From: Coptis chinensis
Lineage: Eukaryota; Streptophyta; Magnoliopsida; Ranunculales; Ranunculaceae
Length of the DNA stretch: 64,000 nucleotides
Reading direction: 5' to 3'
NCBI GenBank assembly: GCA_015680905.1
Contig: CM027382.1
Coordinates: 1,302,001 to 1,366,000, forward strand
Part shown: piece by piece, positions 42,640-49,050 of the stretch
Position numbering within the stretch: position 1 is the first letter of the stretch
Layout: each line of letters begins with the position of its first letter
Notes under the pieces: generated by a model
What the model was told of the DNA's origin: nothing
Seen by the model: only the letters and a program-made list of their open reading frames with translations
Databases searched by the model: none
Position numbers and translations under genes: made by a program

Positions 42640-43170
42640 CTCGTTAGGCAACCCAGGAGCTGCTGGTGCTGGTTGCATTCTTCGAGATAGCCTAGGTGGT
42701 TTTATCTTTGGTATTGCTGCTCCTATTCCGTATGCTACTTCCATCTTTGCTGAGTTATATGCTTTAAGGCTGGGTGTTCTTGCTCTTATTGAGTTACAAA
42801 TGGAGAATATTGTTATTGAAGTCGATTCAAAATATTTACATGAATTGCTCCCCAAAAGATGTGATCAGGAAGTCCCCATTCAATTAAGATTCTCTATGAT
42901 GACATTTGTGATGGCTTGAGTAAGATTCGCAATAAAAGAATTGAATGGAATTATCGTAAAGCAAACAAGACTGCTGATTGTTTGGCGAATTATGCTTCCA
43001 ATTTGGTGACTCATTTGAATTGGAGTGCTGCATAGGATCATCTCATCATTCAACCTACTGAATTTACCAATGTTTTACCTCCTGGGTCTTTGTATTGGTG
43101 GAAGATACCTCCATCTTTCCTGGGTCATGTATTAAATTTGGATGTACAAGGTCATGGTACTGACTGATTA
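42640..43170 (+). pseudogene. LINE-type RNase H domain fragment
   Basis: The first frame reads GNPGAAGAGCILRDSLGGFI, then AELYALRLGVLALIEL and IEVDSKYLHELL. This is the RVT_3-type RNase H fold of plant non-LTR elements, with the D-E-D order D(S)..E(LYAL)..D(SK). A shift of frame follows, then KANKTADCLANYASN, the conserved C-terminal block of this domain, and a typical tail (LPPGSLYWWK). Upstream reverse-transcriptase sequence is absent, so this is a 5'-truncated remnant. It ends just before an (AT)n tract. Confidence 0.75.
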
Positions 43171-43185
43171 GTACCATCTTATTAG

Positions 43186-43262
<77 letters not shown>
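43186..43262. repeat. (AT)n microsatellite
   Basis: A pure TA run of about 38 units. A second, shorter (TA)n lies at 47659-47682, just beyond the other end of the 4.4-kb inverted-repeat element, as if the element inserted into one TA tract. Confidence 0.97.
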
Positions 43263-43265
<3 letters not shown>

Positions 43266-44639
43266 GGTTTGTCTAGAGTGCTACTCTTATAGTGACACCC
43301 TTATCTCACACTTCTCTTGGTCCGTCGGATCTGTTCTTTAGATTATCGGATCTAATTCACTAAAAATCGTGAAATTTCAAAATTTCACACTATTTCAAAA
43401 TCGAAAAAACGAAAAAAATCACGAAATTGGTTTGGAAGGTCTTCTTCTTCTCCACCTTAAAACCAAGCTTCTCTATCGATGACCAAGCACCACGCGATGA
43501 CCAACTCATTGAAGAGTATCTCATTATGAGAAATCAAAATCGACCATTACCGTCAACAATATCAAACAAATCAATGTTTATAAGCATAATCCATATGACC
43601 TTGTAGGTGCGTTTAATTTGTTTATTATCTTGGGGTTTTTTTGTGAACATTTGTTTAGTATATTAATGCTTAAGTCATTAGTTTTATTAGCAACACAATT
43701 AATAATCGTGGATTGAATCTAGTCGATTTAAAAAGAAGGAAAAAGGAAGAAGAACAAAAGGTTAATTTTTTAAGAAGTACACCTAAAGTATTCTAACATA
43801 CAATTTCTACTTTTATATCATCGTATACTTTATTAGTTTATTTATTTTTTTGCTAGAGGTCGTTAGATTAATTATTTCTGTCTAACGCAATGAACGGACT
43901 TAGTTTATTTATTTTCCATGTCGATTCTTGTTTATGTTGTAGAGATGTTCAATTTACACGAAGAGGTTGATTAGAATGAGGTTTTCTGATGCCTCTGTTC
44001 AGAGTGACATGAAATTGTGGTCATTCAAGGTTACGCCTGGGGTCTTTGACAAGCCTGTGTGATTAATGTCAATTACAAGGGTGAGGAGAAGACTTTTCTT
44101 CTTTGAATAAATTTCTTCTATGGTCCTTCTTTGCGAAGATTCGAATGTTGGTTCCTTCTTTGCAGAGCAAATTAGAACGATGGAACTTTGTGCCAAATCA
44201 AACCACCTCCAAATTTAGTGGTTTAGGCTTTGGCACATCCTTTTTTATTGTTTTTTTACACAAATGCTCTTATATTTTTTGCTACCCTACTGTAAGGTTG
44301 CTTCAATTCTAACTTTGCTGTCGTTTATTATCTTTGATGCTATACTGTATAGGGTTTTAATAGAAATTGTGTATGTCTGCAGAACAGAGAACGAGCTTAT
44401 GATTGGCTTATCAGTGAAATGCTTCGGGCAGTATCCTTACTTTTTGCCAAGGTCCTGATATTTCAAGATGGTGCTATAATATATCTGATACTTAAAGTTA
44501 CTGAACTGATATCCATTTTGTGTTGTTGTGTCCTGGTGACATAGCTAGTTTGGATTTATGTTTCACTCCAGTATTTGTCTGATTACCATCTACACCTTTC
44601 TTCTTGTTCTTTTCTACTTCATGTCTTTTTCCATAGCAG

Positions 44640-44982
44640 TAAGTCAAAAAAACCGGCTCGGAACTTAGGGAGTGTTGCATTGGGATTGAGATCAGAGAAT
44701 TGGATGCAGGTAATCTTGATGCTTACACTTAAACAATAAACCAGTTAATTACTACATCGTTATGTCTCGTTGTTACTAAACTAACCAGTAATTGTATCCC
44801 TACCACTTCTTCCGAAGATCTATTTATGATGACTGTTGTTTCCCCCTTTTGAGATCTCAATTTTCTTGTACATTCTGATAATTGCAGGTCATTGTCCACA
44901 TGATGAAAGGCTAGAGGAAGTGAATTCCTTTATATGTGAATGGGGGTCATTAACATGGAAAGAAGCTTACTACCACCGTTGA
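44640..44982 (+). pseudogene. Captured alpha/beta-hydrolase C-terminal exons
   Basis: Exon-like segments are 44640-44709 (after CATAGCAG, before GTAATC) and 44888-44982 (after TTGCAG). Joined, they read GSELRECCIGIEIRELDA, then GHCPHDERLEEVNSFICEW and, after an unrelated tail, a stop. GHCPHDE with the catalytic His is the C-terminal signature of plastid-type plant alpha/beta hydrolases. A third possible exon lies at 44383-44451 (ERAYDWLISEMLRAVSLLFA). The catalytic Ser and Asp regions are absent, so no enzyme is encoded. Exons with retained introns show DNA-level capture. Confidence 0.6.
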
Positions 44983-46111
44983 TTTTCCGGATCATTATAT
45001 TGTCTTTGTGTACTATAGCTTGCCGATGTAAACTTTTTAGTAGAGTAATCACTATTGTATCCTATTGATTATAATGTTTTACTACACTTTTTACACTTCA
45101 TTAATTATAATGTTTTACTTGCTCCTTCCGGTTTTAACTAGATTATTTTGCATTAAGGTTAAAGTAGCATATAATACACTATTAATTTTGTTAATGTTTT
45201 AGTGGCCGAGTTTTTGTATGATGTGTTTGTATCTCTGCAAGTTTTGGTGCAAGTTTTGTATCTCTGCATACATAATTATTTTTTATCGCAGAGATCGCCC
45301 AAGCCAATTTCAATAAGTTAAAACCGATCGTAACAAGTTACGTAAGAGAATCAATAAGATGTTGCAAGTTAAATGGAGAATATAGAGACTAGAAACCGAT
45401 CGGACCAAGTTACGTTAGAGAATCAATAAGATGTTGCAAGTCACATAGCCCAAATTTCGAATCGCATGATTACTATCAAAGTTTATTTTCGCCGAGTTTA
45501 TTTTTTCATCGGAATGATCACCGAAGTTTATTTGGTGTGCTAAATGATCACCGAAGTGGTGAGAAAAGATGCTTGCAGTCTCAGAAACGAAATGGCATGG
45601 TTTTTACAAATCATTTAATCTGTCAGAGTTTTTCCTGTCAGAATTTATTTTTCTGTCAAAGTTTATTTCGGTCAAGGAAGGGCAAACAATAGACACTGCA
45701 ATATCCATTCTCACCACCTTTAATAGAAACATCCATTCTTCTCATTTAATCAGTAGAATTTCAATTAAAGTTCATCCATTCATATTATAGGTCAAACTAA
45801 AGTTCATTTCAATTACACAGTACATATCCAACCACTAAAAAAAAAACTAAACATTATCCATAAGACCTAAACCACCAATCCACCAATCAAGATTTCTTAG
45901 GAGACTTTTACGCCTTAGGCTGAGAAGCAGCAGGAATCTTCTCACCACCTTTATCAATCTTCTTTGGCAACAAAACATTATGAATATTAGGCAACACCCC
46001 ATCAGCAGCATCAGCAAGCAATTTCCCCAATTCATCATCATTCCTAACTGCCAACAACACATGCCTTGGAATAACTCATCATCGACAACGCCACACGACA
46101 TCCAAAGCAAC
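44983..46111. other. Element interior between the captured exons and the GRF gene
   Basis: A near-perfect direct repeat of about 70 bp (caagttacgtWagagaatca, then ataagatgttgcaagt) occurs at about 45,330-45,385 and 45,398-45,450. Repeated 'gatcaccgaagt' and 'ctgtcagagttt' phrases follow to 45,680. Open frames here resemble nothing known. Confidence 0.5.
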
Positions 46112-46477
46112 TTAAGCCAATAACACCTTAACCAGCCACTTGATAATACACAAAACCGCTAAGAGAAGACAGACCAACAACAACTTAAATATTAACATTC
46201 CGATTGAGTGAATTTCCGAATCAGTCGTTATCCTCCTTGTGCAAATAGAAGCTCGACTCTCAGTTGGGGAAAATGTGGGAGCTCGACTCTCATTTATATT
46301 CAACGACGACGAGCTTCCACAATTATTTTCTTCATCCACCCACTTAAAATACCTACATTTCTTATCCTTAGGCAAACGTTTGTCATTTTTTTCGCAAACA
46401 CGGAAAGATCGTCCAGGATTCATTTGGGTATTCGAGACTCTATTAAGAACTGAGCTTCCACAATAAGGGCACCTCAT
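46112..46477 (-). CDS. GRF-type zinc-finger protein with C-terminal membrane helix
   Basis: This is a 121-residue intronless product. Residues 1-50 hold the GRF zinc finger: CPYCGSSVLNRVSNTQMNPG, RSFRVCEK, then CRYFKWVDEE, with the CxxC, NPGR.F..C and C.(F/Y)F.W.DE pattern. A serine-rich linker follows. The end is a hydrophobic helix (IFKLLLVCLLLAVLCIIKWL). GRF fingers bind nucleic acid in topoisomerase III, APE2 and NEIL3; plants have many short GRF proteins of unknown role, often dispersed like mobile genes. It lies inside the 4.4-kb inverted-repeat element, antisense to the hydrolase pieces. The frame is intact, but expression is unproven. The start is the only ATG before the first CxxC. 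Confidence 0.75.
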   Translation of the reverse strand: MRCPYCGSSVLNRVSNTQMNPGRSFRVCEKNDKRLPKDKKCRYFKWVDEENNCGSSSSLNINESRAPTFSPTESRASICTRRITTDSEIHSIGMLIFKLLLVCLLLAVLCIIKWLVKVLLA

Positions 46478-46639
46478 TTATAGATCGAATTTTTCCTTTG
46501 TAGAAGGAAAAAATAAAAAATTAAAAAATATCAAAATATGCAAATGTAAAATCACTTGAATATGTAATAACTATGGAACCCTAAACCAATAACATTAAAA
46601 AACAAATGAACAAACAAAAGTTAAACAGAATATGCTAGT

Positions 46640-46835
46640 TCAAAACTTTAACAGAGTTCAAAACTCTGACAGAGTTCACCGAATATGTTAGTTCAACGAA
46701 CTCGACAGTTTAGCGAACTCGACAATTCAAAACTCGAAGAGTTCAAAAAACTCGACAATTCACCGAACTCGACAGAAGTTCAAAACTCGACAAAATTCAA
46801 AACTCGAGAATTTAAAACTCGACAGAGAGTTCACC
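46640..46835. repeat. Short degenerate repeat array (GTTCAAAACTCGACA-like)
   Basis: About ten copies of a 13-20-bp phrase (ttcaaaactcgaca, ttcaccgaactcgaca) stand next to the inner end of the right arm of the 4.4-kb element. Confidence 0.8.
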
Positions 46836-47700
46836 CTTTGTAATTGACATTAATCACACAGGCTTGTCGCTGACCCGAAAGTAACCTTGAATGACCACAA
46901 TTTCATGTCACTCGAGCAGAGGCATCAGAAAACCTCATTCTAATCAACCTCTTCGTGTAAATTGAACATCTCTACAACATAAACAAGAATCGACATGGAA
47001 AATAAATAAACTAAGTCCGTTCATTGCGTTAGACGAAATAATTAATCTAACGACCTCTAAAAAAAAAAATAAATAAACTAATAAAGCATATCGATGATAT
47101 AAAAGTAGAAATTGTATGTTAGAATACTTTAGGTGTACTTCTTAAAAAATTAACCTTTTGTTCTTCTTCCTTTTTCCTTCTTTTTAAATCGACTAGATTC
47201 AATCCATGATGATTAATTGTGTTGCTAATAAAACTAATGACTTAAGCATTAATATACTAAACAAATGTTCACAAAAAAAAAAAAAACCCCCAAGATAATA
47301 AACAAATTAAACGCGACTGCAAGGTCATATGGATTATGCTTATAAACATTGATTTGTTTGATATTGTTGACGGGTAATGGTCGATTTTGATTTCTCATAA
47401 TGAGATACTCTTCAATGAGTTGGTCATCGCGTGGTGCTTGGTCATCGATAGAGAAGCTTGGTTTCTGGGGTGGAGAAGAAGAAGACCTTCCAAACCAATT
47501 TCTTATTTTTTCGTTTTTTCGATTTTGAAATAGTGTGAAATTTTGAAATTTCGCGATTTTTTAGTGAATTAGATCTGATAATCTAAAGAACAGATCTGAC
47601 GGACCAAGAGAAGTGTGAGATAAGGGTGTCACTATAAGAGTGGCACTCTAGACAAACCGATATATATATATATATATATATCGGGCCGGCTACGTCGACA

Positions 47701-49050
47701 TCTACTATCTATATACTAAAGCAGAGACCTTTAAAAGAGGATTTTCTCTCTCTTATGTGGCACTCTAATATGAGAGTTAGCCTTTTCTCTATCCTGTGGT
47801 ACTCTAATATGAAAGATAGTATTTTCTAATAGCCTACAATCCCACGTACATGGAATCTCTTTGAAGAGTTTGAGTGTATTTATAATTCTTATATTTGGAG
47901 AGTTTGAGAGTATTTTCAATTCTTATATATTTGATCAAATAAAAAAAAAATTGCTAAAAAATTGGTGATTCGTAAAAGGTAATTTCCTATTACGAATCAA
48001 ACACTTTTAGTGTTCCAATTCTTATATATTAGATCAAATAAAAAAAAAAATTGCTAAAAAATAGGTGATTTGTATAAACTAATTTCCTATTACAAATCAT
48101 ACAATTTTAGTGTCTATGATAAAATAAAATACCGACTTATTTTGAATATATCCTTAAAAACAATTATACAAAAAATAACATCACAAAATATATAATAGAA
48201 AATGAAAAAAAAATAATGGTAAAATAATAATGACAAATATTTTAAAATATGTATAATACTGAATGAAACTAACGTCAAAAAACAATTAATGGAAAACTGA
48301 AAACTGGATACAAATGTATCGAATTAACCTCAAATAATATTTAACGGGAAATCGGAAACTGGATGCAAATGCAAGTCTACTATCTATATACTAAAACAGA
48401 GACCTTTAAAGGAAGATTTTCTCTCTCCTATGTGTCACTCTAATATGAGAGTTAGATTTTTCTCTAATCCTATGTGGCACTATAATATGAAAGATAGTAT
48501 TTTCTAATAGCCTACAATCCTACCTACATTGAACCTCTTTGGAGAGTTTGAGTGTATTTATAATTCTTATATTTGGAGAGTTTGAGTGTATTGTCAATTC
48601 TTATATATTTGATAAAATAAAAAAAAAAAAATTGCTAAAAAATAGGTGATTTGTAGAATGTAATTTCATATTACGAATCAAACACTTTTATTGTTCTAAT
48701 TTTTATATATTTGACCAAATAAAAAAATTGCTAAAAAATAAGTGACTTGTAGAAACTAATTCTATATTACAAATCATACAATTTTAGTGTCTATGAAACT
48801 ATGATAAAACACCTAATTTATTTGAAATATATCTTTAACGGCGTAAACAATTATACTAAAAATAACATCACAAAATATATAATAGAAAATGAAAAAAAAA
48901 AATAACGACAAAGCAATAATGACAAATATTTTAAAATATGTATAATATTGAATGAAACTAACGGAAAAAAAAAAACAATTAATGGGGAACCAAAAACTGG
49001 ATGCAAATGTATCGAACTAACCTCAAATAATATTTAACAGAAAATCGGAA
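47701..49050. repeat. Tandem duplication of the Helitron 5' terminal region (675-bp period)
   Basis: Positions 47701-48375 and 48376-49050 are collinear: gagacctttaaa, ttttctctct, atatgagagttag, gatagtattttctaatagcc, agagtttgagtgtatt and tagtgtctatga occur at the same spacing in both, with moderate divergence. Confidence 0.9.

Follow-up and report, generated by a model that had tools for sequence, protein, structure and literature searches.

We analysed a 64,000-nucleotide stretch of Coptis chinensis DNA (assembly GCA_015680905.1, contig CM027382.1, positions 1,302,001 to 1,366,000 of the forward strand; hereafter the window) and examined a 4.4-kb element at window positions 43264-47659. With high confidence, we assign it to a Mutator-like element (MULE) family that targets (TA)n tracts, as a non-autonomous member that captures genes (Pack-MULE-like), an explanation that takes in the mechanism and the accessory role for its GRF gene proposed below. 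The window element is ordinary in type, and the interesting part is the two-gene GRF-FAR1 MULE behind it. More tentatively, as a proposal we regard as close to evenly balanced, we suggest that FAR1/Jittery-type plant MULEs exist as two-gene elements. Their convergent GRF zinc-ribbon gene, with its hydrophobic C-terminal segment, would be an element-encoded accessory factor (for integration or anti-silencing), possibly acting via arrays of 15-bp palindromes, and small annotated plant GRF genes may often be transposon genes.

The element is bounded by inverted arms of ~820 bp, the long terminal inverted repeats (TIRs) typical of MULEs. The left arm (43264-44084, plus strand), with the tip CGGGTTTGTCTAGAGTGCTACTC, was delimited by alignment to its inverted copy and by genomic tip counts, and the right arm (46831-47659, minus strand) is that inverted copy. 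The two arms are 95.0% identical counting gaps and 96.9% counting substitutions, and their length excludes a chance origin. Perfect AT repeats adjoin both ends: a 76-bp tract on the left (43188-43263), taken as the insertion target, and a 22-bp tract on the right (47660-47681). The original prediction had described near-identical long inverted arms meeting (TA)n, an intact GRF zinc-finger gene and no visible transposase, and each of these descriptions was borne out. The GRF gene (46112-46477, minus strand) is open, encodes 121 amino acids and carries the zinc-ribbon domain (PF06839, 2.8e-8) together with a C-terminal segment that is hydrophobic by hydropathy (best 19-residue value 3.15). In a six-frame Pfam scan of the interior (44085-46834), only GRF and the histone H2A C-terminus exceeded the cut-off, both on the minus strand, and no transposase domain was found. 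A search of 43100-47800 against Rfam at gathering score gave no match.

To place the element in a family, we searched 935.6 Mb of the genome in 116 contigs, window included. Only the best candidates of each search were scored (40 of 785 for the arm, 40 of 665 for the GRF module, 150 of 2846 for the transposase and 150 of 301 for GRF), so the copy numbers given here are lower bounds. The arm search returned at least 45 matches. Copies have CGGTTTGTCTAGAGTG-type ends in common, mostly within TA tracts. One copy, L009 (C3:111.47 Mb), has the full plan of the window element at 93.5% identity, and its own arms are 99.0% alike. Four others (L010-L013) share with the window element the left arm, the hydrolase-like exons and the H2A fragment; no GRF match was found in them. 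The locus L014 is a fragment. In L017-L027 the ends are paired 3.5-5.8 kb apart, and the part in common is little more than the outer 145-205 bp, with L024 additionally carrying the minisatellite described below. The interiors of these copies are other sequence, partly apparently gene-derived. Frames resembling PPR, kinase-like and EF-hand fragments, named by eye only, were seen in L024 (1156-2077) and L027 (808-1086). When a transposase was sought in L018 (plus strand) and in L031 (1-3900, six frames), no Pfam domain reached an E value of 0.01 or better; for the remaining 3.5-5.8-kb copies, reading frames were listed without a Pfam scan. The tip pattern had no exact match in IMG/VR.

In L010-L013 there is a single long arm, and the far end resembles the arm over just 57-187 columns at 72-77% similarity. 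These copies could be taken to mean that two long arms are an accident of the window copy, arising as an assembly artefact or a palindromic rearrangement. We consider such an accident very improbable, as the independent copy L009 has the same two-armed plan, and arms of about 760-840 bp also occur in two transposase-bearing relatives, L078 and L079. These relatives likewise remove giant arms as a distinctive trait, which the original prediction had made them.

Elements with the same or similar ends do carry a MULE transposase, which the original prediction had proposed to look for in copies of the arm family. A 16.7-kb element (L036, C2:5793025-5809752) terminates on either side in an exact family tip lying in TA and encodes a MULE domain (PF10551, 5.1e-27), with a SWIM finger in another frame. 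It also carries the window-type subterminal minisatellite, in inverted orientation, close to both ends. In L079 (contig C4), whose TA-flanked tips show 3-4 mismatches over 22 bases against the family tip, FAR1 (2.8e-7), MULE (1.1e-30) and SWIM domains lie on one strand and GRF on the opposite strand. The locus L078 likewise has GRF and a FAR1-MULE-SWIM transposase on opposite strands, its SWIM match being below the Pfam cut-off; its tips are eroded yet adjoin TA. In both loci GRF and transposase lie about 4 kb apart, within the long arms. By domain content (FAR1, MULE and SWIM), L078, L079 and L092 are of the Jittery/FAR1 type. Ten further transposase matches among the best 150 lie 1.3-3.2 kb inward of a family tip, as judged by eye. 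Several observations weigh against this assignment and against a working two-gene element. The 16.7-kb element gave no FAR1 domain in the scanned plus frames, and the two genes were never seen open in one copy: in L079 the GRF gene is frameshifted and the FAR1 part lies in another frame, and in L078 the transposase frame has two stops. The 16.7-kb element also holds a plant mobile domain gene (PF10536, 2.7e-19) at 7639-8990 of L036, in two frames on the strand opposite the transposase. Such a gene is tabled, often antisense, for MuDR-clade MULEs in the available portion of a survey (PMC6446971).

Targeting of TA repeats, proposed in the original prediction, was supported at the level of the genome. 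With up to one mismatch allowed, the genome holds 239 occurrences of the 29-base family tip (123 forward, 116 reverse) and none of the reversed control. A TA phase adjoins 188 of the 239 tips, TATATATC preceding 114 and ATATATAC preceding 74; this count is a lower bound, with one mismatch permitted across the entire pattern of flank plus tip. Among ends fetched with their flanks, 19 of 20 have a TA tract. TA lies on both sides of 16 of the 18 elements for which both ends were printed; in one of them, L018, it starts 7 bp out on one side. Within this set the left end of L011 and the right end of L015 were placed approximately, and neither shows the family tip. Most copies sit in TA microsatellites, as would be expected of a (TA)n-targeting MULE, and the arms did not prove to belong to a known MULE family with ordinary 9-bp duplications at non-TA sites.

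A target duplication is concealed when an element inserts into a TA tract. We reasoned that its parity can still be read, because slippage changes whole TA units and so keeps the phase: a left flank ending in T together with a right flank starting with T indicates an odd duplication. The outer C was assigned to the element because it is found with both TA phases. The parity set comprised 98 of the 114 T-phase ends (14 were outside the listing, and two were left out for a mismatch in the flank or the outer C) and 63 of the 74 A-phase ends (11 left out for a mismatch in the flank or the outer bases), and the nearest facing ends were paired. Among 38 facing pairs, 29 were odd and 9 even (two-sided p = 0.0017). 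One pair scored even (C7:82844445-82856563) is a mispair, its right end being that of L021, and one scored odd (C8:1616314-1628868) may be a mispair, with a tip at 1622560 in between. The parity implies a target duplication that is mostly odd in length and probably 9 bp. Odd parity fits the 9-nt duplication of MuTAnT outside TA tracts (PMC4486113) and the 9 bp of Abermu (PMC9168764), as given in the available portions of those papers. Two points count against a 9-bp duplication. Both the window copy and its sister L009 show the minority, even parity, for which a single-base slip or a duplication of 8 or 10 bp is all we can suggest, and plant MULEs of the Jittery group are tabled with an 8-bp, hence even, duplication where it is known, in the part of the survey available (PMC6446971).

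Entry into a microsatellite might also require no transposase cutting, if a circular form recombined homologously with filler repeats, as has been put forward for SaTar elements. Family elements are joined end to end across shared TA tracts in L017, L021, L026 and L095, as in SaTar arrays, and a plain duplication is unreadable in TA, both of which would suit such recombination. Against it, the TA phase at one end correlates with that at the other, as a fixed odd duplication predicts, and we see no reason why in-register recombination would favour odd spacing. We therefore judge recombination to be an improbable route and prefer transposition, in which a transposase supplied in trans would recognise the element ends, as homology suggests. 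Cut-and-paste movement would then bring the element into TA tracts, where the repeat would hide a duplication of 9 bp, a step suggested by homology and by parity.

Host gene fragments with identifiable likely parents lie between the MULE ends, as in Pack-MULEs. Within the left arm, a NAC (NAM) gene fragment at 43487-43979 (43487-43642, 43643-43676 and 43891-43979; plus strand) is 88-92% identical to the locus L028, which encodes a NAM domain (PF02365, 8.7e-25) and is the likely parent. The left arm was aligned directly to L028 and the right arm via its identity to the left. Captured exons and introns of a hydrolase-like host gene lie at 44279-45065 (44279-44645 and 44658-45065; plus strand). 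Their likely parent is L100 (C3:113836001-113836939), 91.5-94% identical, which keeps about 230 bases where the window element has 12, the element copy being shorter inside. The original prediction had named these exons alpha/beta hydrolase. That they are captured stands, and the name rests on weak matches (Abhydrolase_6 at E = 0.061, below the cut-off, and epoxide hydrolases in the PDB at E = 0.79). A captured C-terminal fragment of a histone H2A gene (45911-46060, minus strand; PF16211, 4.1e-8) and a subterminal minisatellite of 17-18-bp units (46637-46824), related to the arrays of the transposase-bearing relatives, complete the interior. The H2A fragment, the NAC fragment in the arm and the minisatellite were absent from the original prediction.

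Comparison with the relatives suggests how these parts came together. The window segment 46065-46745 aligns at 92% with the GRF side of L079. The copy L010, which we call type A, has the arm and the hydrolase-like and H2A parts, and its far end matches the transposase side of L079 at 93% over 248 columns and 82% over 313 columns; L011-L013, also of type A, resemble L010. In a tree of arms, both window arms and both L009 arms form one group (0.999), and therefore either the arm duplication is older than the split of these two copies or conversion homogenises the arms. Judged from these alignments, the window element seems to be chimeric, a Pack-MULE joined to the GRF-side end that belongs to a two-gene MULE, with one arm copied to both ends. 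In the simplest history, a type-A Pack-MULE would have recombined with, or been copied from, a two-gene GRF MULE, and the NAC-bearing arm would then have been copied to the opposite end. Template switching or recombination may have been the source of both the chimera and the duplicated arm. We infer this order of steps.

The GRF gene is not confined to the window copy and L009. The GRF-minisatellite module (core 1981-2750) matches at least 34 further loci at 87-96%. This recurrence rules out GRF as a private cargo of the window copy, which the original prediction had named among its refuting outcomes, and marks GRF as cargo that recurs and is not accidental. Six GRF-module loci were read. All have a family-type tip on the right, and in five of them TA follows it immediately; the exception, L032, has TA at its left end. 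Together, L030 and L035 make one complete 6.25-kb GRF copy with TA at both ends. A GRF place lies within 10 kb of 28 of the 150 transposase matches listed, counted against 122 GRF places, which were taken from the listed rows and from which second segments of one place were left out; random placement gave a mean of 0.42 and a maximum of 3 in 500 runs. Of 29 GRF-transposase pairs, 27 are convergent, one is divergent and one is on the same strand. A second gene on the strand opposite the transposase, the arrangement of a two-gene MULE, is thus seen in the relatives and not in the window copy. By eye, the GRF genes form three groups, down to about 50% amino-acid identity, with lineages 45-58% identical to the window GRF. 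Because the groups are this diverged, a single recent duplication is an unlikely source of the pairing. Against a general pairing, no listed GRF lies near 122 of the 150 transposase matches, which broken copies, domesticated FAR1-type genes and a GRF list limited to the best 150 of 301 may partly explain. The GRF protein had no match in GTDB genomes and one weak match in IMG/VR (L101, 31% identity), whose frames look like those of a phage contig.

We also considered that GRF was captured passively from the host, as were the NAC, hydrolase-like and H2A pieces, and was amplified by hitchhiking. In the window element GRF does adjoin captured fragments. Among close window-type GRF copies, 10 of 28 are open and 18 are not. 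Eight open, near-identical copies carry 14 nonsynonymous and 8 synonymous distinct changes, which is near neutral, and one of the 8 synonymous changes sits in the stop codon. All 28 close copies together show 73 nonsynonymous against 54 synonymous changes, with shared changes counted repeatedly, where about 2.2 to 1 is expected under no selection. Selection within this young burst is not clear, and the low proportion of open copies and their near-neutral changes speak for passive capture and against a maintained gene.

The diverged copies bear differently on the question. The pooled ratio of nonsynonymous to synonymous changes (pN/pS) is 0.64 over ten pairs (Fisher p = 0.0019), hand-picked from the alignment and not from a tree. 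The sister-pair values spread from 0.33 to 1.21, which weakens the case for constraint. The median NG86 dN/dS is 0.46 over 205 of 210 non-independent pairs; from the 20 diverged GRF loci in that comparison, one (L085) was dropped because it lacks a start codon. Among the invariant columns are the two cysteines of a CxxC motif, a third cysteine further on and positions in the hydrophobic C-terminal segment. By these sequence measures, the diverged GRF copies show mild purifying selection. Open frames are kept, and GRF is convergent with the transposase, even in the lineages that are only 45-58% identical to the window GRF; the selection tests were applied to GRF alone. Taken together, passive capture seems unlikely to us, and we favour GRF as the family's second gene. 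The GRF protein would then serve the two-gene element in an accessory role, possibly via palindromic subterminal repeats: the subterminal arrays consist mostly of 17-18-bp units around the near-palindrome AACTCTGWCAGAGTT, as judged by eye.

The flanks of the element hold further features. A reverse-transcriptase-like frame of RNase H type (RVT_3, PF13456, 3.3e-8) at 42650-42996, just left of the TA tract, is perhaps the 3' part of a long interspersed nuclear element, and therefore the left TA tract may belong to a retroelement tail. On the right, TCTACTATCTATATACTAAAGC at 47701-47722 resembles what we take to be a plant Helitron 5' end, and 47917-48113 consists of two tandem 100-bp units that are 89% alike.

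Much of this is already known: MULEs have been described that target TA microsatellites, have long TIRs, capture genes or carry a second gene on the opposite strand. The comparisons that follow draw on the available portions of the papers cited. The original prediction took the element as a candidate for an undescribed type, a claim that is not supported: its relatives carry a MULE transposase, and the type is not new because (TA)n-targeting MULEs, including ones with long TIRs, have been published as MuTAnT (PMC4486113) and SaTar (PMC5907723). MuTAnT of Medicago truncatula is likewise a MULE that inserts into (TA)n, has a Jittery-like transposase in its putative autonomous copy, AutoMuTAnT, and shows a variable terminal G stretch and a 9-nt duplication outside TA (PMC4486113). 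The tips have GGTTTG-CTAGA in common with ours, a comparison made with the 16-base TIR mask only, in which 78 of 20,000 shuffles reached the score. Unlike our family, with its ~820-bp arms, host fragments and GRF, AutoMuTAnT reportedly has a single open reading frame (ORF), 90% of MuTAnT copies are 200-300 bp long, and the available text mentions neither GRF nor host gene cargo (PMC4486113). SaTar/AgS-MULE elements of guayule and rice are non-autonomous, microsatellite-targeted MULEs in arrays, with an autonomous relative that has 400-bp TIRs; they differ in using non-TA repeats too, in the recombination proposed for them, and in a main text that, as far as available, is without GRF (PMC5907723). 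Pack-MULEs also carry several captured host gene fragments between MULE ends (PMC6446971, PMC5907723). In contrast to them, one cargo gene of the window element appears to be the family's own second gene.

For that second gene, there are parallels in other MULEs. Abermu elements of barley and other plants have GGG...CCC ends and make duplications of 9 bp at TA-rich sites; besides the transposase gene, their types I and II hold an opposite-strand gene, ORFR, with a Ka/Ks of 0.39-0.56 (PMC9168764). They differ in a transposase nearer MuDR and distant from Jittery and in TIRs of 138-145 bp, and in the available text ORFR is not described as GRF and microsatellite targeting is not mentioned (PMC9168764). 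The Abermu authors suspect that the opposite-strand second gene may not matter for transposition (PMC9168764), which counts against an accessory role for GRF. MuDR of maize is described as having two oppositely transcribed genes, mudrA and mudrB (PMC6446971, PMC9168764), and mudrB is apparently required for integration (PMC6446971); unlike MuDR, our family has a FAR1-type transposase and targets TA repeats. In Arabidopsis VANDAL elements, the MULE-encoded anti-silencing protein VANC binds a short motif that is tandemly repeated in the element (PMC5735166). By analogy, we conjecture that GRF could have a role like that of VANC or mudrB. For plant Jittery elements, one ORF is tabled in the dicot/monocot row of the survey (PMC6446971), and Jittery itself is given one gene (PMC9168764). 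Judged by title or the start of the abstract, none of the open-licence papers listed in our searches describes a GRF gene in a MULE, which is weak evidence of novelty; GRF has no occurrence in PMC8599713, PMC9168764 or PMC13317346 and one in PMC8774480, as a software name.

Our results thus indicate a recurrent second gene in FAR1-type MULEs, one that is without an entry in the available part of the survey table (PMC6446971). The TA-phase parity test is, in addition, a simple detector of a target duplication concealed by a microsatellite. If the two-gene proposal is true, FAR1-type MULEs would gain a partner gene comparable to mudrB, ORFR or VANC, and the small GRF genes of plants would have a possible origin. 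It would then also become testable how MULEs locate TA repeats and persist there.

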